Shown here piece by piece: positions 1,676-23,316 of a stretch of DNA of 40,745 nucleotides (within the stretch, counting starts at the first letter, position 1; each line of letters begins with the position of its first letter). This DNA comes from a virus. The DNA lies in the IMG/VR virus record IMGVR_UViG_3300029927_000049, positions 1 through 40,745 of that record, one strand, 5' to 3'. The notes under the pieces are model-generated. The model saw nothing but the letters and a program-made list of their open reading frames with translations, was not told the origin of the DNA and made no database searches. A program made the position numbers and the translations under genes.

Positions 1676-2863
1676 ATGGCACGACCTAAGAAGCCTAGGT
1701 TTGTGGACGGCATTCTATTGCCTGACAACCTATATAAAGACCCCAAAGGGCGAATAAATTATTGGCGCTACAAGAGGCGAGACGGCACAGAGAAGATTTT
1801 TCACGCAACCCTAGAGGATGCCGTGGAGGTTGCGAACGCCACCAATAAAGAAAAGGGGATGATGAAAGCCCCTCCCCCACGAAGAGATTCGGTGATTAAA
1901 TACGCTCTTGATTACGAGGCTTATAGAGAAAAGCTCGACCCATCGCTACAAGCTAAGGAATCATGGAAGACTCGCGGAGGCTATTTGCGGCAGTTTGCCA
2001 CCGAATTTACCACCACCCCAATTAGCCACCTAGACCTTATCTCTATACAAAATTGGTGGGACCACTTAACCGGATACGCTCAGCGCTCAAGACGCTCTGA
2101 ATTCAATAAATTTTTTAACTGGCTAATGTCTAAGGATGTTGTGCCTCTACTTAAAGGCAACCCATTCACCACTGCCGATGATCGCCCTCGCGTACTAATG
2201 AAGCCACTACCTAAAAAGGAAAGACAGCGACTCGACAAAGAGAGCTTTTGGAAAATTTACGAGAAAGCTGGCGAGCTCGGTTTAGATTACTTACAGATAG
2301 GAATGGGGATCAGCCTACTTACCACCATGCGGAGAGGCGATATTGTTTACCTTAAATTTGACCGGCACATAGTCAACGATCAATTATGTAAGGGTATTTC
2401 TAAAAGCCACGAAAAGGCCGAAAATGGCGAAGGGGCCAACCTGCGATGGGATTTGAGCGATAACCCAATGTTACGCGAACTCATAGCGAGAGCGCGAGAG
2501 CTATCATTGAAGCATTACCGCTGCCCTTACGTCATCAACCGGCTGCCGCAAAAAAGGGTAATGGGTAAAAAGACCCACCATTGCCAAGTATTGCCCCGCA
2601 TATTTTCTGATGCCTTTGTTGAGGCCAGAGACGCTACCGGCCTATTTTCTGGATTAGAGAAACGCCAAAAACCGACCTTCCACGAGATACGCGCACTGGG
2701 TAGCCACCTTTATGGAAAGGCTGGTTATGATATTGGGCGAGTGCAGGAATTAATGGCGCACACCGATGCTGAAATGACGGAGCATTACCAGGCAGGGCAT
2801 GAAATACAATGGACTGATATTGATATGACGATATCGGAGAAAGTGCTTGGGGGGAGTTTTTGA
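1676..2863 (+). CDS. int: Tyrosine-recombinase integrase
   Basis: A 395-residue site-specific recombinase of the lambda Int family, which catalyses integration at attP/attB and, with Xis, excision. An N-terminal arm-binding-like domain (about 1-65, with YWRYKRRDGTEK) and a core-binding domain (about 70-175) precede the catalytic domain. Visible active-site residues are R219 (TTMRRGD), a likely K243, H336-x2-R339 (HEIR), H362 (MAHTD) and the nucleophile Y371 (TEHY). All canonical positions are present, so it should be active. A ribosome site (AAGGA, spacing 9) supports the ATG. The start lies 40 bases after the Xis-like gene. Confidence 0.95.
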   Translation: MARPKKPRFVDGILLPDNLYKDPKGRINYWRYKRRDGTEKIFHATLEDAVEVANATNKEKGMMKAPPPRRDSVIKYALDYEAYREKLDPSLQAKESWKTRGGYLRQFATEFTTTPISHLDLISIQNWWDHLTGYAQRSRRSEFNKFFNWLMSKDVVPLLKGNPFTTADDRPRVLMKPLPKKERQRLDKESFWKIYEKAGELGLDYLQIGMGISLLTTMRRGDIVYLKFDRHIVNDQLCKGISKSHEKAENGEGANLRWDLSDNPMLRELIARARELSLKHYRCPYVINRLPQKRVMGKKTHHCQVLPRIFSDAFVEARDATGLFSGLEKRQKPTFHEIRALGSHLYGKAGYDIGRVQELMAHTDAEMTEHYQAGHEIQWTDIDMTISEKVLGGSF

Positions 2864-2873
2864 TAAAATCATG

Positions 2874-2913
2874 AATACAGCCTTTAGACTACTGTCTAGC
2901 TAGGGGCTGTATT
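2874..2913. terminator. Hairpin between convergent int and Ntn gene
   Basis: A 9-bp perfect stem (AATACAGCC 2874-2882 with GGCTGTATT 2905-2913) encloses a second hairpin (TAGAC/GTCTA). It lies between two convergent genes, so a shared transcription end is plausible. The flanking T tracts are poor, so an efficient intrinsic terminator is not certain. Confidence 0.4.
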
Positions 2914-2925
2914 TACCTAACAGCA

Positions 2926-3807
2926 TTAGAAATACCGACCAACTGACTTCGCTAACTTCTGTTGTAGCGCAATAAACTCGTCCGTTTGCTCTGGAGTATA
3001 ATCACTGCATACTACTTGCCCCATACTGTTAAGGCGCGCGGCCTCTTCAGCGGCGTCAAACGGGCTAGCGCAACGTAAATCATTCGATGAGGCTGCATCT
3101 TCCAACCCCTCCAGGAGTTTAACCTGCTCACCCACAAGCTCTCTTTCCATTTGAATATCACTCTGTTTAGTAGTCATATTAATCTTGCCACCAGTGGGTA
3201 AATCCCCACCCTCCTCGTAGCACGCAAAAGCTATTTTTTCGGATTCCTTATCATTCAGAGTAGCATTTTTAGCTTTTTTTACCACATCTTTAAGGTTACA
3301 ACGTGCTATCGCTTTGAGATTGGCACCAACTATCCTGCGAATTGGCAGCTGCGCCCCTCCCTTGCCCTTATTCTCCTTATACATTTTGGAGAATCGGCCA
3401 GACCCAATAGCAAAAGTCTTACTGTTAACAGCTTGATCTCTGGATGTCCTCTTGATCTCTGGCTGATCGCTTCCTGGATCAGCGCGAGAATATGCAAACA
3501 ACTGCAAACTCCCGTCATATCGCATAATGTAAAACTGAACCCCAATATGTTTAGCAAATTCAACAAGTGAATCAAGCCAAAAATCAGATCTATTAATTAT
3601 TAGATCATACTCTTTCAAAAATTCAGCGAATATTATATTGGTTCCAGCAAATCCGTACAAAACCCCGCCAATATCAACGCACTTCAAGAACTCATCGACA
3701 TCGTCCCATTTTGCTATCTTTCCGTTGCTGTTCAGGTAGCTTACCCGGGTGTCAGAGGCCATTACTGCAGGCTTTTTGTGCCGCTTCCTAAATATCGTTG
3801 TAGTCAA
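2926..3807 (-). CDS. Proteasome/HslV-like Ntn-hydrolase protein
   Basis: A 293-residue protein with hallmarks of the proteasome/HslV N-terminal-nucleophile family. After removal of Met the chain begins with threonine (MTTTI, compare HslV MTTI). D19 (MASDTR) and K30 (GKI) fall near the catalytic Asp17/Lys33 positions. GFAGT (52-56) and FAIGSG (132-137) match two conserved core motifs. Family members are self-compartmentalised proteases, but some relatives have other substrates. A charged C-terminal extension of about 100 residues goes beyond HslV length. The start is TTG, with AGGA at spacing 8. It sits alone and reversed between int and attP, the usual place for a lysogenic-conversion gene, and would lie at a prophage end. 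No HslU/ATPase partner is seen in the window. Confidence 0.7.
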   Translation of the reverse strand: MTTTIFRKRHKKPAVMASDTRVSYLNSNGKIAKWDDVDEFLKCVDIGGVLYGFAGTNIIFAEFLKEYDLIINRSDFWLDSLVEFAKHIGVQFYIMRYDGSLQLFAYSRADPGSDQPEIKRTSRDQAVNSKTFAIGSGRFSKMYKENKGKGGAQLPIRRIVGANLKAIARCNLKDVVKKAKNATLNDKESEKIAFACYEEGGDLPTGGKINMTTKQSDIQMERELVGEQVKLLEGLEDAASSNDLRCASPFDAAEEAARLNSMGQVVCSDYTPEQTDEFIALQQKLAKSVGRYF

Positions 3808-3921
3808 ATCCCAAGTCCTGTTTCCGAATAGCGAAAACCAATTGTGACGCTACATAAATTATAAGCGCCATCTCCATCAACAATACATTGAACACGCAAC
3901 CCGCGGAAAACTCAATGGGGG

Positions 3922-3947
3922 AAGGGGCTCTTCAGCCCCTTTTTTTT
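3922..3947 (+). terminator. Rho-independent terminator
   Basis: An 8-bp stem AAGGGGCT/AGCCCCTT around a CTTC loop is followed by a run of eight T on the plus strand. It would stop rightward transcripts that leave int before they reach attP. Confidence 0.75.
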
Positions 3948-3967
3948 CATTACGCCGTTTAAGTATT

Positions 3968-3985
3968 GCTACGTACCAAAACAAG
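3968..3985 (+). repeat. Possible integrase/Xis arm site, copy 2
   Basis: GCTACGTACCAAAACAAG here matches 1647-1664 at 17 of 18 positions. It lies about 80 bases from the tRNA-derived attP core. Confidence 0.35.
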
Positions 3986-4007
3986 ACATAATTCTTTAAA
4001 ATCTTAG

Positions 4008-4029
4008 TTTGTGTGCGGTTTGTGTGCGG
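4008..4029 (+). repeat. Tandem 11-base repeat beside attP
   Basis: TTTGTGTGCGG occurs twice back to back (4008-4018 and 4019-4029). A related ATGTGCGTTTCGG lies on the other side of the core near 4168. Short direct repeats flanking the core are typical integrase arm-type sites. Confidence 0.5.
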
Positions 4030-4062
4030 TTAGTATCCCTTAACACTGCAACCCGCGTCAAT

Positions 4063-4112
4063 TGGTCGGGGCGAAAGGATTTGAACCTTCGACCCCTACA
4101 ACCCCATTGTAA
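4063..4112 (-). other. attP: attP core: 3' half of tRNA-Pro(GGG)
   Basis: Read on the minus strand, this matches positions 27-76 of a proline tRNA. It shows a 5-bp anticodon stem (UUACA with UGUAG), loop AUGGGGU with anticodon GGG, a TpsiC arm containing GGTTCAAATCC, acceptor strand CGCCCCG, and encoded ACCA. The 5' half is absent: upstream there is no D arm and no CGGGGCG strand. A 3' tRNA half in a phage next to int is the standard sign of integration into that tRNA gene, restoring its end. Core limits are approximate. Confidence 0.85.
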
Positions 4113-4220
4113 AGTACTCGTGAATGCAACTCGTTGATTAAAAAGGAATCTAGGGGTATTTGAGTTAATGTGCGTTTCGGGCGAAAATGACCGCCAATCA
4201 ATTAACAAAGGATGTGGAAA

Positions 4221-4724
4221 ATGTCGGCACTATTAGGAACTATCGTGGGCGGACTTATCGCTTTTTGTAGCTCAGTTGGGGCAACCTATATACTGGACAA
4301 TCGCAAAAAAACTCTTGAAGCCAGAAGTATTGCCGTCGTAATTTCCGGTGAAATCGGCATGGTCTGCAAGCTGATAAAAAAGAGGCAATACCAGCAACAC
4401 ATACAGTCGCACATAGCAAACCTTAAGCGAGATAGTTCCACCGCATCCTTTAGCGCCCATGTAAGGCGGTCTTACTCGAAAGCATACGACGCAAACATAC
4501 AAAAACTTGGTGTACTGGAGTATGGCCTAGCAGGCGAGATTGTTGAATTCTACGGACTGTTGAACGCTGCGATTGAGGATATAGAAGGTGTAAGCAACGG
4601 AGATCACGACAAGCACAGCGAAAAAACGCTGATTGATTTATACACTAATTTGGACAGTATAATTGAGCGGATAATGATACTAGGTGAGGGGATTTGCACG
4701 AAGGTGGCAAAAGACTGCGAGTAG
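4221..4724 (+). CDS. Membrane-anchored hypothetical protein
   Basis: A protein of 167 residues from the ATG at 4221, chosen over ATG 4212 because AAAGGA (4207-4212) lies 8 bases upstream of it. An N-terminal hydrophobic segment (LLGTIVGGLIAFCSSVGATYIL) anchors it, with the remainder cytoplasmic by the positive-inside rule (NRKKTLEAR follows). The body is helical and charged. No family is recognised. It is the first gene beyond attP and would sit at one edge of the prophage, a usual place for lysogen-expressed genes. Confidence 0.65.
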   Translation: MSALLGTIVGGLIAFCSSVGATYILDNRKKTLEARSIAVVISGEIGMVCKLIKKRQYQQHIQSHIANLKRDSSTASFSAHVRRSYSKAYDANIQKLGVLEYGLAGEIVEFYGLLNAAIEDIEGVSNGDHDKHSEKTLIDLYTNLDSIIERIMILGEGICTKVAKDCE

Positions 4725-4753
4725 TGACCAGCCCCCATCCATAGTAAGCAAAA

Positions 4754-4782
4754 TTGACTCTATTTTGTCCTTAGCCTAATAT
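4754..4782 (+). promoter_or_regulatory. Sigma70-type promoter for 4817 gene pair
   Basis: A -35 TTGACT (4754-4759) and a -10 TAATAT (4777-4782) are separated by exactly 17 bases, and an ATG follows about 35 bases later. This is the best constitutive-type promoter in the accessory region and fits genes expressed from the lysogen. Confidence 0.65.
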
Positions 4783-4816
4783 CCACATTCCACAATCAGA
4801 TTAAGGATAATAAACG

Positions 4817-5224
4817 ATGGCCTACATTGAAGAGTCGCTTTCTAAGGGCGAGATAATATACGAGAAATTCAAACACCATTGGACGGCCTATATAGTCATG
4901 GTGCTTTGTATAATCTTGGCCCCTCTCACCTTGGGAATAACTTTAATATTTGCCGTCTATGCCTACTTGTCTCTTAAAGCGATAGAGCAAGGCGTAACTA
5001 ATAAGCGCGTTATTTATAAAACAGGGATAATTTCACGAAAAACTGAAGAGGTTAAATTAACATCAGTTGAAACCGTGGAGATTAAGCAAGGTATATTGGG
5101 TAGGATGCTGGGTTATGGAGACGTCGAGGTGACGGGCACAGGCATTAGCGGAATGTTATTTAAGTCGATAGATAACCCTATGTCAGTCAAGAAGTCGATA
5201 GAAAGCGCTGAGCCAGCCCAATGA
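4817..5224 (+). CDS. bPH2-domain membrane protein
   Basis: A 135-residue protein with two adjacent membrane helices (about residues 23-55, WTAYIVMVLCIILAPLTLGITLIFAVYAYLSL broken by a proline/glycine turn). A bacterial PH-like domain of the DUF304/YdbS type follows: TNKRVIYKTGIISRK, then TSVETVEI and GYGDVEVTGTG. In bacteria such proteins are membrane proteins of largely unknown role. The ribosome site AAGGA (spacing 9) and promoter 4754-4782 support expression. The stop overlaps the next start (ATGA, 5221-5224), so it is coupled to the secreted nuclease. Confidence 0.75.
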   Translation: MAYIEESLSKGEIIYEKFKHHWTAYIVMVLCIILAPLTLGITLIFAVYAYLSLKAIEQGVTNKRVIYKTGIISRKTEEVKLTSVETVEIKQGILGRMLGYGDVEVTGTGISGMLFKSIDNPMSVKKSIESAEPAQ

Positions 5225-5676
5225 TTAGATTAACCCTAACCTTATGCGCCCTCCTTGCCTGCTCACAGTCTTTCGCGGCCAAATCATACGGTAACCTTAA
5301 ATTACCATCTAGTGCCGTGACAAGCATCTATGACGCAGACACGTTCACCATAACAGTTCCTGGCTGGCCTGCCGTTGCTGGTGAGCGAATTAGCGTAAGG
5401 ATAAACGGGATTGATGCGCCGGAGATGAAAAGCAAGTGCAAGACCGCAGACGCCAAAAGTCGCGAACGACGAATGGCACAAAAGGCTAAACAATTTACAG
5501 TTGGCGCATTGAGGCAAACAAAGGAACTGGAGCTAAGGAATATTAAGCGAGGGAAGTATTTTAGACTGCTAGCCGATGTCTACGTTGACGGGCACAATCT
5601 AGCCGCTTACTTGATCGAAAAAGGCCAGGCTAGGCCATACCACGGGGGGAAGCGTAAAAACTGGTGCAAAGGTTAA
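5221..5676 (+). CDS. Secreted thermonuclease-family nuclease
   Basis: A 151-residue staphylococcal-nuclease-like protein. A signal peptide occupies about 1-20 (hydrophobic LTLTLCALLACSQSFAA). The SNase fold follows: IYDADTF (36-42), RINGIDAPE with R60 and E68 matching catalytic Arg35/Glu43, GKYFR with R115 matching Arg87, LADVYVDG, and a C-terminal ARPYHGGKRKNWC. All catalytic residues appear present, so it should cut DNA or RNA outside the cytoplasm. Possible roles are nutrient recovery or attack on incoming phage DNA in the periplasm. It is coupled to the bPH2 gene. Its 3' end overlaps the convergent tail gene by 4 bases. Confidence 0.85.
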   Translation: MIRLTLTLCALLACSQSFAAKSYGNLKLPSSAVTSIYDADTFTITVPGWPAVAGERISVRINGIDAPEMKSKCKTADAKSRERRMAQKAKQFTVGALRQTKELELRNIKRGKYFRLLADVYVDGHNLAAYLIEKGQARPYHGGKRKNWCKG

Positions 5677-6623
5677 GTACTCTTCCATCTATATCGACAT
5701 GCCTTAACGCCGCTCGGTGTTGCCCTGGCTAAGTCAGCATTATCTAGCCTCAAATAATCATCCTTGAATAACTGCGCTATCGATTCGCCTGCCTCGTGCA
5801 TATCAAGAAGATCGCTGGTTTCTGGTGGATTTAATAGAATTACTTCGTCGCCTTCCTTTTTGCTTAGGAATGGGTGGGGAATTAACCCCATGTCGGCGTT
5901 TTTGATTGTGTGGGTTATTTCTTCCATTTCGGTAACCACTTTGCCGCGCCTTTTGTCTATTGTGCGCTTGCGCCTGAATTTCTTTCCCTGCCTGTTGGTT
6001 GCGTCAGCTCTAACGCTGGTAGGACCATTGTATCCCCATGGCGGAACGTCTGCCGTATACGTTGCAACAATAACGCCATCGCGCAGCAAGCCGAAGTGAA
6101 ACAGCGGTATATCACCATCTCCTAGGTTATAGGGTGGTGATGAGTTTATATATCGTTGGTGAGCGTGGAGTGTTATTGAGGCGTGACCGGACACTTGCTC
6201 TAATTGAATGGCTGTCACTTGGCCATCTGCCGCCAGTAACGGGGAGCTTTCTAGCATTCTCATTGCGAAAATAAAGCCACCAGTGCTGCCCACCGCCTCC
6301 GCTTGCGGAAAAAACCCATATGACCCGCCAGGTAAAATCAAATCCTGAGCCGCCCCCAACGCTACAGAAACAGAGCCGGTTGAAGTGCTTAATTCTGCCT
6401 GGTGAATAGCTCCCGCCACTACCTGTGATTGATCAACGGAATTAGCCGCCATCTTATCGAGCGTTACAATTGCACTATCCATAGCCGCAGTCTGCAACCT
6501 AGGCGCACCCGCCGCCCCTTCGAACATTGCAAGAGGATCATCCCGCAAAGCTGTTAATGTCGCCTCTACAATTGGGCTATCAGTATCTATCTGGGCCGTT
6601 GTTATGCCTGTATAACCTGTCAT
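5673..6623 (-). CDS. Tail-tip-associated virion protein
   Basis: A 316-residue protein at the distal end of the tail operon, after the hub-like gene. It starts MTGYTGITTAQIDTDSP, and carries a basic segment (RQGKKFRRKRTIDKRRGKVVTEMEE) in its second half. No enzyme motif is visible. Position suggests a tail-tip or host-contact component. I recognise no named family. It is the last gene of the late transcript and meets the plus-strand nuclease gene tail to tail. Confidence 0.6.
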   Translation of the reverse strand: MTGYTGITTAQIDTDSPIVEATLTALRDDPLAMFEGAAGAPRLQTAAMDSAIVTLDKMAANSVDQSQVVAGAIHQAELSTSTGSVSVALGAAQDLILPGGSYGFFPQAEAVGSTGGFIFAMRMLESSPLLAADGQVTAIQLEQVSGHASITLHAHQRYINSSPPYNLGDGDIPLFHFGLLRDGVIVATYTADVPPWGYNGPTSVRADATNRQGKKFRRKRTIDKRRGKVVTEMEEITHTIKNADMGLIPHPFLSKKEGDEVILLNPPETSDLLDMHEAGESIAQLFKDDYLRLDNADLARATPSGVKACRYRWKST

Positions 6624-6630
6624 AAATACC

Positions 6631-8238
6631 TCATATAATTAAGCTTGGGACGTCGCCATTACTCATCTCTTCGGATGAGGTGTCAGCAACAAATGCATAC
6701 TTAAGCCGGTCGGCCTGACTTGCGGATGTGTAATCAGCCATCGAATTAGGCGCAACCAGCCCATACTTAGCGCCTACTAGCCAGCCTGTTTTAATGCCGG
6801 TATATTTGTATTTTGTTGGCGTAATTGGCTGCTTTTCTACAATCATAAAATCAGAAGGCAATGGCGCGCCGTTTGTGTCTTGGATTAAATTCGTCTCAAT
6901 CGTCGCGGTATCACCTACCGCTGTATCTGCGTCTTTAACATCAAGCTGCATTTCATATTTGTGCTCGCCTGTTTTATTCTGCGCTAAGATTCTGCTGCCT
7001 AATTTACTGGCACTAGATGCGCCCGACCCCGGAATGAAACTAGCGTAAATCTTTTTAACTTTGGGCTTTCCGTGTCCTGTCGTCGCGTCTGCGTCTACGG
7101 CTATGTGTCTGTATTCGTAGTTACTGGGGTCGGCTTTACCTTTCGAATGATCTCTACGCCCGTAATATATCCACACTTCAGTGATTGCCTTGGTGGGGTC
7201 GCGCTTCTGCTTTTCGCCGTCCTCTAAAATATGTTCTGTTTTATTTAGCGTTACGTTTGGCGTTGGCGTTGGGCCAATTGCTTTTAGCTTTATTTCCTGC
7301 GCCACGTCATCCCACCACACCGAGCAATAAGCCTGCTCACATAGGCTCTCTATGATTTCCTTTACATTCGATGGCTCGGATATAACGCCAGTAACTAACT
7401 CACCGACAAGGAAATCGTCACGCTGAGTGTTCCAATCTGCATCAGGAATATAGCTTGCGTGGTCGATTGGCGAATAATCTTCAATTAGGGAGCGGATAAC
7501 ATCAACAACGTTTGCACTCTCGACATAATAAGAATTGTGAACGCTGTCGCCGCTGTCGTGCGCTTTTGCTTCCGATCCAAACGCGCCGCGCTCAGTTGTT
7601 ACAATAGAAGTGCCGCCTGATATACCGGAATACCGCACAAGCTCGCCGTCGAGATTGGCAACGCCGCCAGAAGCGCTAAACCCTGTGTTATCGGTTATAT
7701 CTAGCGTGCCTGTCGCGGAATCAGTTAGCGCCCCTGCAAGCACGCCGTCGCTTGGTGCTGGCGCTTGGGCTTGGTCATCGTCCAATAATGTTAGCGGGTC
7801 AGCTGCCGTTATTGTTACATTACCTCTTGCGTCTGGGCCTTCGATTTTCTTTATAAAATACAAATGCTCTTTGAAGTCGGCAATGTCGAAAGTATCACCC
7901 TTGTTATAAAAACCTGTATATATTTTTATCTTCCTATCAAGATAATACTCATTTGCTGCAACCAGCTTGGGAAAGTATGATCCGGCGCTACCTATAGAGA
8001 AGTCTTTAAACTTTAATTTAACATGGCCACGAAAACCCAAACCAGAAGCAATTGCCATCCTTGTCGGCGTTACTGAGTAGCCGCCTTTCGCCTCGTGCGG
8101 GTAAAAGAATTGACCAATCGGGGTAGCACCAAAACAATGCCACTCTTCGCCAGAATCAGATATAGAATTATCTAGCTCAAGTTTTACAATAATCTTTGGT
8201 GTGCGGGTTAGCTTGTCTCTTTGCGTTGCATATGACAC
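6631..8238 (-). CDS. Tail hub/tip protein
   Basis: A 535-residue beta-rich protein downstream of the tape measure and the two paralogous tail proteins, where siphophages encode their hub. The N-terminal part (RTPKIIVKLELDN) and middle (ADPLTLLDDD; TDNTGFSASGGVANLDGELVRYSGISGG; ERGAFGS) look like hub/tail-tip domains. The ERGAFGS-type turn is common in phage hub proteins. The call rests on position, length and composition rather than an identified family. It overlaps the start of the upstream gene by one base. Confidence 0.6.
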   Translation of the reverse strand: MSYATQRDKLTRTPKIIVKLELDNSISDSGEEWHCFGATPIGQFFYPHEAKGGYSVTPTRMAIASGLGFRGHVKLKFKDFSIGSAGSYFPKLVAANEYYLDRKIKIYTGFYNKGDTFDIADFKEHLYFIKKIEGPDARGNVTITAADPLTLLDDDQAQAPAPSDGVLAGALTDSATGTLDITDNTGFSASGGVANLDGELVRYSGISGGTSIVTTERGAFGSEAKAHDSGDSVHNSYYVESANVVDVIRSLIEDYSPIDHASYIPDADWNTQRDDFLVGELVTGVISEPSNVKEIIESLCEQAYCSVWWDDVAQEIKLKAIGPTPTPNVTLNKTEHILEDGEKQKRDPTKAITEVWIYYGRRDHSKGKADPSNYEYRHIAVDADATTGHGKPKVKKIYASFIPGSGASSASKLGSRILAQNKTGEHKYEMQLDVKDADTAVGDTATIETNLIQDTNGAPLPSDFMIVEKQPITPTKYKYTGIKTGWLVGAKYGLVAPNSMADYTSASQADRLKYAFVADTSSEEMSNGDVPSLII

Positions 8239-14482: not shown

Positions 14483-15823
14483 TTACTGGCCAGCGTTCTT
14501 GAACAAGCCGCGCCAATCAATAACGCCAGCACCAAAGTCTAAGCGCGCCTTAATCTTGATTCCATCTACATCAAAGCCTTGCTCGGTTTCGATATAAACG
14601 CCCTCTTCGCCGGTCAAGTATGCATACTCGATGGTATCGATACGGTTAGGAGATGAGGCCAAATACCAAGAAGTCTCACTATCATCATCAAGGCGAGGCT
14701 CGACAATGATTGTGAAAGTGTTGGCGAATGGGTTAACGTCGTTAGAAGCGTTAGCAACAATTGCAGTAAGTAGCTTTTGCGCTACTGTTTCTAGTGACGC
14801 CGGAACAATCAAAAACTCAGCCATCAAGTTAAGCGGGCGAGTAGAGTTGATTCCTGTTTGTCTGCGTAACTTCTTACGCGCTTCGCTTAGTGTGGTTTCG
14901 CTAAGAGCGCCCGCTGTACCTAAGTTTTTATGCCCTGTATGGAATAACACCTTGGCATCAGACATAACCTTAGTGCCGGTAATCAATCCCCAAACGGTTG
15001 TATTTTCAAGCTCAGCAGCAGAAGCGCCGAAAGCTTGAGGAATACGTGTGAACGCATCAAGATCATCATTGATGAGCGTTTGACGGGTTAAGGACATGAT
15101 TTTACCGAACGTTTCTAGCTGATAAGCTTCGTTCGCTTCTCCCATGGTGCCGTACTTGAATTCGCCCTTTTCGTTCACTTTTTCAAGCTCTGGCGCTTCG
15201 CCTAGCTTGGCGCGGTTAACGGCTTTGAAGTCCGAGGCTGAAGTTTGGCGACAGAAAGGCATAAACGTCTTTGGCGCTGCCTCGTAGCCTTGAGATAGAG
15301 ACTTGTTAGCAACATCAGCCAGGATCGCTGGAAAGTCGCTAGTTGAATGCATTGCCTTTGCTGCAACTTCATTCGGTGACATACCTCGAATACTACCGCC
15401 GCCGCACTCAATCATTGCCTTGGCCATATCGAGAAGCGAAGCGCCTCGGAAGTCTGCGCCGCCTTCGTCGAGCTTATTCTTTGAAGGGGCCGCGCGATTC
15501 AAGATAGCATTAGTCATGCTTGCCTTGATTGCTGTGGTGTCAGTCTCTACGCGAATGTGAGAGCTAGGCACAAATGCAGCGTCTCGCTTTGCTACAGCTT
15601 CCAGTGCTTCACCGCGAGCCGCATCGATTGAAATGCCGCGATCGATCATGTTATTTACAGCATCGGCGTCTAACTTTGCTTGGCCGCCAATTTCACGAAT
15701 GGAAGCCGCTCGTTGTCGCTCTTTGGCTACTGCCTCAGTAGCTAGCGCCTTTGCTGCTTCATCTGATTTTGCTTGTGCGGCCATTGCTTTTGCTTCAGCC
15801 GCTGCTATTTCTTCAGGTGTCAT
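14483..15823 (-). CDS. Possible nested scaffold-capsid product (internal start)
   Basis: Within the fusion, ATG 15823 is preceded by a good ribosome site (AAAGGA at 15834-15839, spacing about 10). It would give a 446-residue protein beginning MTPEEIAAAEAKAM, that is the scaffold helix plus capsid domain without the protease. It starts exactly at the domain border. Lambda uses the same trick to make Nu3 from inside C. This is inference from the sequence; protein-level evidence is needed. Confidence 0.5.
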   Translation of the reverse strand: MTPEEIAAAEAKAMAAQAKSDEAAKALATEAVAKERQRAASIREIGGQAKLDADAVNNMIDRGISIDAARGEALEAVAKRDAAFVPSSHIRVETDTTAIKASMTNAILNRAAPSKNKLDEGGADFRGASLLDMAKAMIECGGGSIRGMSPNEVAAKAMHSTSDFPAILADVANKSLSQGYEAAPKTFMPFCRQTSASDFKAVNRAKLGEAPELEKVNEKGEFKYGTMGEANEAYQLETFGKIMSLTRQTLINDDLDAFTRIPQAFGASAAELENTTVWGLITGTKVMSDAKVLFHTGHKNLGTAGALSETTLSEARKKLRRQTGINSTRPLNLMAEFLIVPASLETVAQKLLTAIVANASNDVNPFANTFTIIVEPRLDDDSETSWYLASSPNRIDTIEYAYLTGEEGVYIETEQGFDVDGIKIKARLDFGAGVIDWRGLFKNAGQ

Positions 15824-16498
15824 AGTGGGTATTTCCTTTGGGTTTAAATTAACGGGCTGGGCCGCTTTTGGTGTTGATGACAAGCTTTTACGCATATCAT
15901 CGGGAACGTTGCTAAATTGATTTAGATCGATTGAGGCCGCAGCTTCTATTGCGTCGGAAATCTCATCAATGAAACCCATCTCTAACGCATCCTTTGCGCT
16001 GATCCAGGTTTCATTTCTCAACATATCTTTGATTTCATCTTCGGATAGGTTGCACTTGGCTTTGTAGATTAAAACTAGGCTATCTTCAAAGCCGTCTAAG
16101 TTGTCGGCCATCTTTCGCATTTCGTCAGCGTTGCCGCCTACGTAATTCCACGGCTTGTGAATCATTAGCCAGGCGTTAGAAGGCATGATCACCTTATCGC
16201 CTACCATTGCCACAACGGACGCCATCGAAGCTGCTAGGCCGTCGATATAAACCGTTATGTTTGCCGCTGATCGCTTTAGCGCGTTATAAATTGCCAAACC
16301 TTCTAGAATCAATCCGCCGCCTGAGTGTATGCGAACGGCTAGCTCATCTTTATTGAGATATTCAAGCTGTCTAACAACGGATTCAGCGTCTAAATCATCC
16401 CAATACTCGCCAATCTCACCGTAGAGAAGAAGCTCACCGCTGCCACTAATGCTGTTTCGGCTTGTGGTTGTGCCTACGCTATTCCGGCTTGTTTTCAT
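14483..16498 (-). CDS. Fused ClpP-like prohead protease / scaffold / major capsid protein
   Basis: A 671-residue fusion from ATG 16498, preferred because GAGG lies 9 bases upstream (upstream ATGs exist at 16525 and 16507). Residue numbers here count from 16525. Residues about 30-195 are a ClpP/S14-type protease: GLAASMAS with S100 as nucleophile, MIHKP with H123, and NETWISAKDALEMGFIDEI. The usual ClpP Asp position reads as Asn/Glu. Residues about 235-330 are a charged helical scaffold (PEEIAAAEAKAMAAQAK...). About 340-680 is a Mu/HK97-type capsid protein (RQTLINDDLDAF; FHTGHKNLG). In lambda these are separate C, Nu3 and E genes. Cleavage between domains during maturation is expected. Confidence 0.9.
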   Translation of the reverse strand: MKTSRNSVGTTTSRNSISGSGELLLYGEIGEYWDDLDAESVVRQLEYLNKDELAVRIHSGGGLILEGLAIYNALKRSAANITVYIDGLAASMASVVAMVGDKVIMPSNAWLMIHKPWNYVGGNADEMRKMADNLDGFEDSLVLIYKAKCNLSEDEIKDMLRNETWISAKDALEMGFIDEISDAIEAAASIDLNQFSNVPDDMRKSLSSTPKAAQPVNLNPKEIPTMTPEEIAAAEAKAMAAQAKSDEAAKALATEAVAKERQRAASIREIGGQAKLDADAVNNMIDRGISIDAARGEALEAVAKRDAAFVPSSHIRVETDTTAIKASMTNAILNRAAPSKNKLDEGGADFRGASLLDMAKAMIECGGGSIRGMSPNEVAAKAMHSTSDFPAILADVANKSLSQGYEAAPKTFMPFCRQTSASDFKAVNRAKLGEAPELEKVNEKGEFKYGTMGEANEAYQLETFGKIMSLTRQTLINDDLDAFTRIPQAFGASAAELENTTVWGLITGTKVMSDAKVLFHTGHKNLGTAGALSETTLSEARKKLRRQTGINSTRPLNLMAEFLIVPASLETVAQKLLTAIVANASNDVNPFANTFTIIVEPRLDDDSETSWYLASSPNRIDTIEYAYLTGEEGVYIETEQGFDVDGIKIKARLDFGAGVIDWRGLFKNAGQ

Positions 16499-17954
16499 TT
16501 TCGTCATCCTCGTAATTATCTTCAATCTGAAGGTTTCCGGCAGAAGTCGTTTTTCTTGAGTCGGAATCTAAAATTATTCCATTATCATCGAAGCGTTTAT
16601 TATCCTCGACCATCTCCTTAATAAGCGCCTCGGGCTGGTAACCGTTTTCTCGAACAGTCTCAGACCATGACTTCAATCCTCCCCTGATCGCTTTTAATTG
16701 CGCTGGTATTTCTTTGTTGGCGTCAATCATTTCTCTACGGGGCGGCGTCCATTCAAAAGTGACGCCTTTCATATCGTGACCCGCTAAAGTTGCCGCCTCA
16801 ATAAACCAATCGCCTACCTTGTGGCAAAGCTGGGGGATAATCATGTTCCACCGCCAGCGCTGTATATTTCTTGAGAACTCTATCCAGCCCATTTTGCCGC
16901 TTGAGAAGTTAACGCCACCAAGGTCGCCCGTAAGCGCTTCGTATGTGATACCGTAAGACATTGCAACCGCGTGCAGCTCAGTAGAGACAAATTCGGCATG
17001 ACCAGAAACGGAAGGAGGGGAATTAAATTTTACATCCTTACCTCCGCTAATCTGAGGAAACATGCCAGGCTCCAGCCTATCCGGCAAAACATCGCCTCTA
17101 GAATTGGGGTTTTCGCTATCCGTAATAATCCCAACTAAACACGCTGAAATTTTTTGCTGTTCAATTCTTGCGTCTTGAAAATCATCGAGCCCCTTCATTT
17201 TCATAAAGGCGGAAGCGCCGGCGGGAATACCTCTTACTTGCCCTGGGCGCTTTGCTTCGAATATATGGGCAACTTGATCAATTGGCGTTAGCTTTGAGGT
17301 TAAGGTTGTTGCACCTCTTTCGCCTGGGTGGTTCTTGTAAAGCCATAATCCAGACTTAGCGCCACCGGAAGAAAATTGAACGCCTTGTATTACGTTACTG
17401 CCGTCGGTCAAGCCGCCGTCTTTAGTGTGGTCAATGTGATCACCTTCAACGAGCTTGATTTTTAATGGTACTGCTAGACTTCTATCATTGACGGTCTGCT
17501 TAATAACAACAGCTTCGCCACTCTCGGATACTGCCGCCATTGCTAGCGCTTGAAGGCCGTAGAGGTTATGCACGCCATCAACGTCGCAAGTCTTTAACCA
17601 TTCCCGCATTAGCTTATTAGCGTTATCTTGGCGCTTTTGGTTGTCACACTTAGCCGCTGGAACTATTCCGGCACCAATTGCATTCGATACCCTCGCCTCG
17701 ATGGCTCTGGCTGCGTATGGGTTGTTGCGCACCATTTCACGCGAGCGACCACGCAAGGCAACAAGCGAGCCTCTTGTTTCAACATTCACGCTAGAATCCG
17801 AGCCTCTAACCCAAGTATTGCGCCGACCCTTTCCGGCAGCGTCGTAACCGTCTTTAGCTGTTAGCATATCCGATCTGTAGCGGGCCTGATCTCGTGCAAG
17901 CGCTCTAGTTGGCGAGAAGTAGCCAACAAGCTTATCGAACATGTTGCGACTCAT
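16479..17954 (-). CDS. Portal protein (lambda gpB family)
   Basis: A 491-residue lambda-type portal. It has the usual N-terminus (ARDQARYRSDMLTAKDGYDAAGKGRR), RGRSREMVRNNPYAARAIEARVSNAIGAGI at about 70-100, and the conserved centre YEALTGDLGGVNFSSGKMGWIEFSRNIQRWRWNMIIPQLC. It forms the dodecameric ring through which DNA enters the capsid. The acidic C-terminus (EDDENENKPE) overlaps the start of the protease-capsid gene. Confidence 0.92.
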   Translation of the reverse strand: MSRNMFDKLVGYFSPTRALARDQARYRSDMLTAKDGYDAAGKGRRNTWVRGSDSSVNVETRGSLVALRGRSREMVRNNPYAARAIEARVSNAIGAGIVPAAKCDNQKRQDNANKLMREWLKTCDVDGVHNLYGLQALAMAAVSESGEAVVIKQTVNDRSLAVPLKIKLVEGDHIDHTKDGGLTDGSNVIQGVQFSSGGAKSGLWLYKNHPGERGATTLTSKLTPIDQVAHIFEAKRPGQVRGIPAGASAFMKMKGLDDFQDARIEQQKISACLVGIITDSENPNSRGDVLPDRLEPGMFPQISGGKDVKFNSPPSVSGHAEFVSTELHAVAMSYGITYEALTGDLGGVNFSSGKMGWIEFSRNIQRWRWNMIIPQLCHKVGDWFIEAATLAGHDMKGVTFEWTPPRREMIDANKEIPAQLKAIRGGLKSWSETVRENGYQPEALIKEMVEDNKRFDDNGIILDSDSRKTTSAGNLQIEDNYEDDENENKPE

Positions 17955-22212: not shown

Positions 22213-23316
22213 TTAGAAAGTTAAGATTCTATTTTCTGATTCAATCGTTAAAACTCTGCGCTCTGCCTCAATCGCCATCACTCTATTAAATGGCGCGCTC
22301 ACCTCTAATTCACCTTCATACAAGAAAGGCGAACTACTACCTAGTGAATGCTGAGCGTCGAATACTTCGATTAGGTGTAATTGAGTTAACGCTAAATTAT
22401 CGCTACTAAGTGCGCTTGCTGCGTCTTGAATAGCTAGCGTGTAATACTGTGATAATGTCGGTGTTGTCGCCGTGTGAGCGTGAGAGCATGAATTAATGCT
22501 TAGCTCTACATCAACCGATAAACTGACATTGGTTGCTGTGTGGCTATGCGTAGCGTCATTAACGCTTATATTGTGTTTCTGCTCTAACGTTAAATTATCC
22601 GAACTAACGCTATGTGCTGCACTGTGTATCGGTAACGTACCGGCGACAGCTAAAACTACATTCTCTGCACTGTGATTGTGAGTGCTTGAGCTTATGCTTA
22701 ATTCTGAGTGCTGAGATAACGCTAAATTGTCACTTGATAGACTATGCGCTACATCGTTAATCGATAACGTTGAAAACTGAGCTAATGCTAGGTTATCGGC
22801 GCTATGTCCATGCGCTGCGCTATCAATTGCCAGTGTAACGAATTGAGCTAATGCTAAATTATCAGAGCTTAGGCTGTGCGTTGCGCCTTGTATTGCAAGC
22901 GATCCAGCAACCGAAAGCGTTACGTTATCGCTTATTGTGCTGTGCGCTGAATTGGCAACCGTTAAAACGTGGTTTTGCGTTAACGTTACAGAATCAGCTA
23001 AATGGGCATGCTGTGAATTGTTGGCCGTTATTACATGATTTTGTAGTAAGGCTGCCAGGTCACTTGTAAGCGCGTGACTTGCATCTTGTACGCTTAGCGT
23101 GTAATTCTGCGTTAGTGTTAATGAGTCGCTAGTTAGTGCGTGTGCTGCGCTGTTAATCGCTATTGTGTGCGACTGTGTTAATGCAAGGTTATCTGAGCTT
23201 AGGCTATGCGCTGAATTGGCTATTACTAACTCTGTAGTACCGCCACCACTCGGAGCATCCCAAGGGGCGCTTATATCACCTCTAGCCGTATAACCTTTTG
23301 GGTTAAAACCTCCCAT
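22213..23316 (-). CDS. Fibre-like protein with 22-residue tandem repeats
   Basis: A 367-residue protein. A short N-terminus (GGFNPKGYTARGDISAPW) leads into about 14 tandem repeats with an exact 22-residue period, of the form LxIxxAxHSLSSDNLALTQ. A histidine in the middle is present in nearly every unit. The unrepeated C-terminus (APFNRVMAIEAERRVLTIESENRILTF) looks like a strand-rich cap. The regular period suggests a solenoid or triple-stranded fibre shaft. Neighbours are fibre-type genes. Similar His-containing repeats occur in unnamed phage proteins, from general knowledge. Confidence 0.75.
   Translation of the reverse strand: MGGFNPKGYTARGDISAPWDAPSGGGTTELVIANSAHSLSSDNLALTQSHTIAINSAAHALTSDSLTLTQNYTLSVQDASHALTSDLAALLQNHVITANNSQHAHLADSVTLTQNHVLTVANSAHSTISDNVTLSVAGSLAIQGATHSLSSDNLALAQFVTLAIDSAAHGHSADNLALAQFSTLSINDVAHSLSSDNLALSQHSELSISSSTHNHSAENVVLAVAGTLPIHSAAHSVSSDNLTLEQKHNISVNDATHSHTATNVSLSVDVELSINSCSHAHTATTPTLSQYYTLAIQDAASALSSDNLALTQLHLIEVFDAQHSLGSSSPFLYEGELEVSAPFNRVMAIEAERRVLTIESENRILTF

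Follow-up and report, generated by a model that had tools for sequence, protein, structure and literature searches.

The locus studied here encodes, between the integrase gene and the attachment site of a phage, a 293-residue protein whose motifs recall those of HslV and the proteasome. What is this protein, and what could a temperate phage use it for?

Setting of the gene

The window, meaning the whole 40,745-bp stretch of DNA analysed, is an entire IMG/VR record. An 82-bp direct repeat stands at its two ends, which shows that this circular phage genome is complete. Among its products are a tyrosine integrase, a CI-like repressor, a large terminase, a portal protein and an endolysin, together with replication proteins that include an O-like initiator, a DnaB helicase, a Sak4 annealing protein and an SSB. 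The terminase is nearest to that of Alteromonas phage P24 (55.6%). We conclude that this is a temperate tailed phage, and its host is probably a gammaproteobacterium. The genome also encodes a head maturation (ClpP-type) protease fused to the major head protein in a single 680-aa ORF (14483-16525; phrog_133, phrog_4523) and a probably tail-fibre-like protein composed of numerous imperfect 'AHSLSSDNLALTQ'-type repeats (22213-23316).

The gene and its surroundings have the following features:

1676..2863, plus strand: tyrosine integrase (Pfam PF00589, 1e-8; phrog_1, 9e-22)
2872..2914, no strand assigned: inverted repeat forming a hairpin between the convergent integrase and proteasome-like genes (fold -22.9 kcal/mol)
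2926..3807, minus strand: ORF with a TTG start for a proteasome-type N-terminal-nucleophile protein of 293 aa, with seven homologues and an AlphaFold2 model
3816..3819, minus strand: AGGA Shine-Dalgarno sequence, 8 nt 5' of the TTG start
3858..3863, minus strand: TATAAT, a weak candidate for a -10 box, 50 nt 5' of the start codon and lacking a good -35
3921..3948, plus strand: GC-rich hairpin followed by a T run, terminator-like in sequence and fold, between the gene start and attP
4062..4107, minus strand: attP core, a 46-bp copy of the tRNA-Pro 3' end, 87% identical to its E. coli counterpart

The hairpin at 2872..2914 is a probable terminator common to both genes. About 250 bp separate the start of the proteasome-like gene from the 46-bp tRNA-Pro 3'-end copy, which is evidently attP. 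The original prediction correctly placed the gene between int and attP, an arrangement that recurs in other phages. An origin of the gene in a host flank was rejected, because attP lies within the record and the circular phage genome is complete. Upstream of the TTG the frame contains no other start codon, and the N-terminus of the protein reads M(TTG)-T-T-T-I-F. The TATAAT sequence is absent from the promoter scan output, as is the hairpin at 3921..3948 from the terminator scan output.

Beyond attP, at 4212-5676, three plus-strand accessory genes encode a 170-aa protein that is probably membrane-anchored, a bPH_2 'membrane-flanked' protein (phrog_3707) and an SNase-like nuclease that is probably secreted. 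These genes lie across attP, so both prophage edges hold cargo.

Relatives, fold and predicted active site

The window protein alone has no match in Pfam, PHROGs, NCBIfam, PDB sequences, INPHARED or PLSDB. A search for its peptide words in IMG/VR and in a set with one genome for each species also returned no relative. Homologues were instead found by pattern scans followed by iteration. A pattern for the start of PPH matched 115 phage stretches with 109 PPH-type ORFs. A looser pattern (TT..., SD[ST]R, GxAG) returned mainly an AAH-like phage family of ~200 aa, with more than 100 ORFs among the matches listed, and also a full-length homologue, L130 (39.6% over 270 aa, 2e-61). Iteration added L238 (an Alteromonadaceae MAG), L239 (Aeromonas aquatica), L243, L244, L245 and L247.

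Each of these seven homologues shows 38-43% identity to the window protein across almost its full length, the C-terminal extension included, and the window protein is among the most divergent of the eight members. Three further loci (L252, L253 and L254) matched degenerate patterns, encode no relative and were rejected. Pattern scans repeated after the seven homologues were in hand brought no new members. Whole-genome surveys recovered the family in 1 of 75 genomes of the Aeromonas family, 2 of 395 of the order and, convincingly, 1 of 369 of the class, in each case a previously found member. Since only two already-known genomes were recovered, the family is rare. For the L130/L244 pair, dN is 0.17 and dS ~2.6 (saturated), and a dN so far below dS may be taken as a rough sign of purifying selection.

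The motifs from which a proteasome-type protein had been predicted (M-T-T-T, S-D-T-R, G-F-A-G-T and F-A-I-G-S-G) are all present in the product of 2926-3807. They are not chance resemblances, because T2-T3-T4, S18-D19-x-R21, K42, G52-F-A-G55 and A133-I-G-S-G137 are invariant in all eight members. Gly200-Gly-Asp-x-x-Thr-Gly-Gly is likewise invariant.

Sequence kinship to recognised families comes from the PHROG model phrog_1040, 'peptidase HslV family', which detects all members but one (7 of 8; best 3.3e-12), in most of them over residues 1 to ~138. Of the seven family records or genomes searched with it, six gave a match. As a control, the model matches E. coli, B. subtilis, archaea and other genomes with HslV or a proteasome. 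The window protein is too divergent to match it, so similarity to a recognised superfamily member was found for the other members and not for this one. In profile-profile comparisons the family profile scores 35.1 against PPH and 41.5 against the AAH-like profile, where the maxima of 200 column shuffles are 19.3 and 28.9. The family HMM, run over the 15,189 ORFs of the loci, has AAH-like proteins as its sole non-family matches below E = 10. Against PDB sequences the family profile gave no credible match, and the low-scoring rows are due to chance. Membership in PPH was rejected: the window protein has 293 aa versus ~140 aa, and the PPH HMM, which gives the family 4.6-9.5 bits, scores it at 4.9 bits, a value equalled or beaten by several shuffled copies.

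The AlphaFold2 alignment contained the eight family sequences only and no PPH or HslV sequence, which makes the fold comparison independent of the motif argument. The best model has a pLDDT of 91.6 and a pTM of 0.90. Two of the five models are confident (pLDDT 91.6 and 88.4) and three are not (71.6, 64.7 and 62.4); a single-sequence prediction of the window protein reached 34.5. A Foldseek search with the model gave 25 PDB chains at E <= 0.001, and the rows listed are all proteasome, HslV, Anbu or connectase. Among the matches of viral origin is a 'proteasome subunit beta' from a Caulobacter phage. In VIA-align, Z is 12.3 to Staphylococcus aureus HslV, with an rmsd of 3.0 over 151 residues, and 20S beta subunits follow at 11.7-12.1 in tied rows; across these alignments the rmsd is 2.4-3.2 over ~150 residues. 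Model residues 2-214 superpose on 1-171 of T. maritima HslV, and residue 2 takes the place that residue 1 has in mature HslV and beta-subunit chains. Sequence identity between model and HslV in the fold alignments is 14-17%.

The proposed proteasome/HslV-like identity was thereby borne out by the structure prediction and fold search suggested as its check: the model has the Ntn beta-sandwich fold of HslV and the proteasome, and Thr2 falls on the catalytic Thr1. Neither of the two refuting outcomes named in advance, a fold unlike the Ntn sandwich or an N-terminal Thr away from the active site, occurred. As judged from sequence and predicted structure together, the protein belongs to the proteasome-like (peptidase T1) Ntn-hydrolase superfamily. 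The elements of the putative active site, and the extension that follows the core, are:

3802..3804, minus strand: codon of Thr2, the predicted N-terminal nucleophile after Met removal (invariant in 8/8; pairs with residue 1 of mature chains)
3751..3753, minus strand: codon of Asp19 in the S-D-T-R motif, counterpart of proteasome Asp17 (invariant; aligned with the HslV, PPH and AAH aspartate)
3682..3684, minus strand: codon of Lys42, putative catalytic lysine and counterpart of Lys33 (the only invariant Lys of the segment; spacing as in PPH)
3643..3654, minus strand: G52-F-A-G55 oxyanion-hole loop (invariant; aligned with HslV GFAG)
3397..3405, minus strand: G135-S-G137, second active-site motif (invariant; aligned with HslV and PPH GSG)
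2929..3165, minus strand: C-terminal helical extension, residues 215-293, with invariant C246-A-S-P249, beyond the part aligned to proteasome chains (2-220) (model and conservation)

Asp19, Lys42 and Gly52 match PPH and HslV by motif and spacing, with the HslV lysine column shifted by a two-residue loop. Lys42 (residue 41 once Met is removed) is ten residues ahead of the first GFAG glycine, and PPH has the same lysine spacing. The original prediction of an Asp and a Lys near catalytic spacing was sound for the invariant Asp19 but not for the lysines that this spacing indicates. Position 33 reads K/R/K/Q/K/R/R/R across the family, and position 30 is likewise variable. Lys30 and Lys33 were rejected on these grounds, and because both positions vary, Lys42 is the likely catalytic lysine. 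The catalytic triad of BPH is Thr1, Asp17 and Lys37 (PMC5777263), so the length of the lysine-side loop varies between families. We infer that Thr2, Asp19 and Lys42 catalyse.

Start codons in the family are TTG in five members, GTG in two and ATG in one. A TTG or GTG stands directly before the catalytic Thr in seven of the eight (window codon 3805-3807). These non-ATG starts may hold expression low.

The extension had been put at 100 residues and left unexplained. It is shorter, with about 79 residues (215-293) beyond the core, and is modelled as helical (222-241, 252-261 and 276-290, mostly at pLDDT 85-94). Across the seven full-length sequences, 12 of its 79 positions are invariant versus 57 of 214 in the core; by this sequence measure, the extension is less conserved than the core yet clearly kept. 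Two model helices of the core (57-65 and 67-88) could be H1 and H2 or a kinked H1, the published RPC being without helix H2.

Carriers and possible function

The window and L244 have the order int, proteasome-like gene, tRNA-Pro-type attP, tail genes. L130 has the gene, a tRNA-Pro-type attP and tail genes, and its sequence is cut before any integrase. Looking for the same gene at other phage att sites, as had been suggested, thus gave three tailed phages (window, L130 and L244) with the gene beside a tRNA-Pro attP. L243 has the gene immediately after a different integrase, and in the Aeromonas prophage L239 it comes after the replication/late-regulator region, at the contig end. L245 and L247 are inoviruses with zot, replication initiator and coat genes, and carry the gene downstream of zot; dif-like sites were not found beside these copies with the pattern used. 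The sole other gene that the carriers have in common with the window is a distant integrase in L244 (32%). Because the gene occurs in tailed phages and inoviruses that are otherwise unrelated, it constitutes a portable cassette of two unrelated kinds of virus.

Two carriers have further features. In L245 a regulator-like gene is present whole at 6898-7314 and again as a 3' fragment just before 8131, ahead of the proteasome-like gene. This duplication suggests that the cargo came by recombination or tandem integration. L244, besides its proteasome-like gene, has what looks like a diversity-generating retroelement (3077-4333 and 4728-6413), with a reverse transcriptase beside a protein ending 'GGSWGNGSSAGLSALNLHFSRSSSSSGLGFRPAL'; the start of the reverse transcriptase ORF carries a stretch similar to 'GGSWGNGSSAGLSALNLHFSRSSSSSGLGFRPAL'.

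We consider it rather probable, from sequence and model, that the gene product is a catalytically competent proteasome-type threonine hydrolase and that the gene is accessory (moron) cargo of the temperate phage, placed next to its attachment site. Translation would begin at the TTG, and methionine aminopeptidase would take off Met1, since Thr follows. Thr2 would then become the N-terminal nucleophile, its own amine together with Lys42 and Asp19 activating the hydroxyl, and the Gly52 loop would form the oxyanion hole. In the manner of HslV or BPH, the subunit would probably form a ring or double ring. It could cut peptides, and proteins that are unfolded or specifically docked, without a dedicated ATPase, and contacts for assembly or substrate may come from the conserved C-terminal helices.

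No HslU gene was found among the neighbouring genes or the window phage proteins scanned. The earlier statement that the gene has no ATPase partner agrees with this, in that the phage proteins scanned, which are part of the ORFs, included no unfoldase. BPH and other new homologues are likewise, as a rule, without a neighbouring unfoldase gene (PMC8665760, PMC5777263), and ATP-independent cleavage is therefore the simplest reading. An accessory gene expressed from the prophage fits a gene that lies beside int/att, has its own ribosome-binding site and is transcribed towards the integrase. Judged by this position, prophage expression is probable, and we guess that the product aids the lysogen or blocks competitors. 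Host conversion, anti-phage defence and protein turnover, the uses first suggested, are conjectural candidates. Hotspots for accessory genes in prophages frequently contain antiviral systems, and some of these hotspots are close to the integrase (Rousset et al., PMC9122126); competition with other phages is therefore our leading guess. PADLOC-DB, which is silent on uncatalogued systems, gave no match for the proteasome-like gene or for eight other small ORFs.

It is possible, if rather doubtful, that the protein is instead a specific processing peptidase, or a protein ligase or amidase, with one partner that is recognised by the C-terminal helical domain. Connectase, a ligase of proteasome fold, is a precedent (PMC8665760) and is also among the fold matches, the conserved extension would be an extra recognition surface, and no unfoldase was found beside the gene. 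The connectase match is, however, no better than those to HslV or the proteasome, and the loci seen show neither a substrate motif nor a partner gene conserved in the neighbourhood of the gene. We regard it as very unlikely that the protein works with host machinery, either by using the host HslU unfoldase or by co-assembly that redirects or poisons host HslV. Both cellular carrier genomes do have a second HslV-type model match, one of them a clearly normal HslV; by Z, HslV ranks first among the solved folds, in a tie with other rows; and the phage lacks an unfoldase among the proteins scanned. But the identity to HslV in the fold alignment is only 14-17%, and the extension has no HslV counterpart. 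A catalytically dead or decaying relic, passively carried, is extremely unlikely: the window copy does belong to the most divergent and is missed by the HslV-type PHROG model, but its 293-codon frame and catalytic residues are intact and the family dN is far below dS.

Returning to the threonine hydrolase that we favour, we speculate on a more specific use, which we ourselves hold to be unlikely. A self-standing, ATP-independent proteasome-like protease could serve temperate viruses as unrelated as tailed phages and filamentous inoviruses as a portable competition device, for instance by degrading a protein of an incoming phage. It would be made at a low level through non-AUG starts and passed on as a cassette beside integrase and att.

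In the literature found, no function is reported for the proteasome homologues of phages, and a 2021 survey gave no informative gene context for any of them (PMC8665760). The family described here has such context: in tailed phages it lies mostly beside an integrase, three times at a tRNA-Pro att, and it is also present in inoviruses. Its integrase/att placement and move into inoviruses point to a selectable cargo role. The confident model and compact size make it convenient for asking what proteasome-like enzymes do without an unfoldase.

Comparison with known proteasome homologues

The original prediction held proteasome-fold proteins to be rare as phage cargo. This is not so: the PPH and AAH homologues are widespread in phages (2021; PMC8665760), and our scans gave 109 PPH-type and more than 100 AAH-like ORFs. 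Like PPH, the window family has an N-terminal MTT, the Asp, a Lys-x9-oxyanion motif, GSG and a TGG-type last strand, and is carried by tailed phages. PPH is half as long and has no C-terminal extension, and the stretch from GSG to TGG is longer in the window family. There is no significant HMM match between the two, the link being made by profile-profile comparison only.

AAH-like phage proteins ('MTTIVAIQGDGFAVVGTDSRIS', ~200 aa; the AAH name was assigned in this analysis) provide the best non-family HMM matches and the best profile match. They differ from the window family in their insert pattern and have no C-terminal extension of its kind. Such homologues are very common in IMG/VR, many of the loci L117-L236 being among the matches listed.

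HslV shares the fold, the Thr1/Asp17/Lys33/oxyanion layout and the phrog_1040 similarity. Unlike HslV (~175 aa), the window protein has 293 aa, a C-terminal helical extension and a different lysine-side loop, and the structure-based identity is the 14-17% given above. BPH, a double-ring Thr protease (PMC5777263), resembles the window protein as a stand-alone HslV relative without a known unfoldase, whereas BPH is chromosomal and constitutively expressed (PMC5777263) and the window gene is phage-borne.

RPC and DPH are, by their description, among the closest known systems, with a proteasome-like core, a start at the catalytic Thr, an extra C-terminal domain without a known match and a proteobacterial distribution. 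RPC has its C-terminal extension on a PPH-related core (PMC8665760). The two were compared by description only (accessions WP_140207863 for RPC and WP_074989469 for DPH; PMC8665760). They differ in that the survey table marks no phages for either (PMC8665760), whereas the family here is phage-borne.

Another phage protein also bears on RPC. L192 encodes on its minus strand (7292-8047) a 251-aa protein whose core is of PPH type and is followed by a C-terminal extension, which fits the published RPC description; on sequence it is possibly a phage-borne RPC. It scores 23 bits against the PPH profile and 9.7 bits against the window family, which itself scores 4.6-9.5 bits against PPH. The N-terminal motif and the TGGE-helix stretch are common to L192 and the window family, which makes L192 a possible link between that family and RPC; no relatives of L192 were found in 369 genomes, phages or plasmids.

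We conclude that the window protein is a divergent group-I-type homologue with a C-terminal extension, RPC and DPH being known by description only. If the family is RPC or DPH, it is the phage-borne set of a cluster for which the survey table marks no phages; if it is neither, it represents a further cluster of proteasome homologues.
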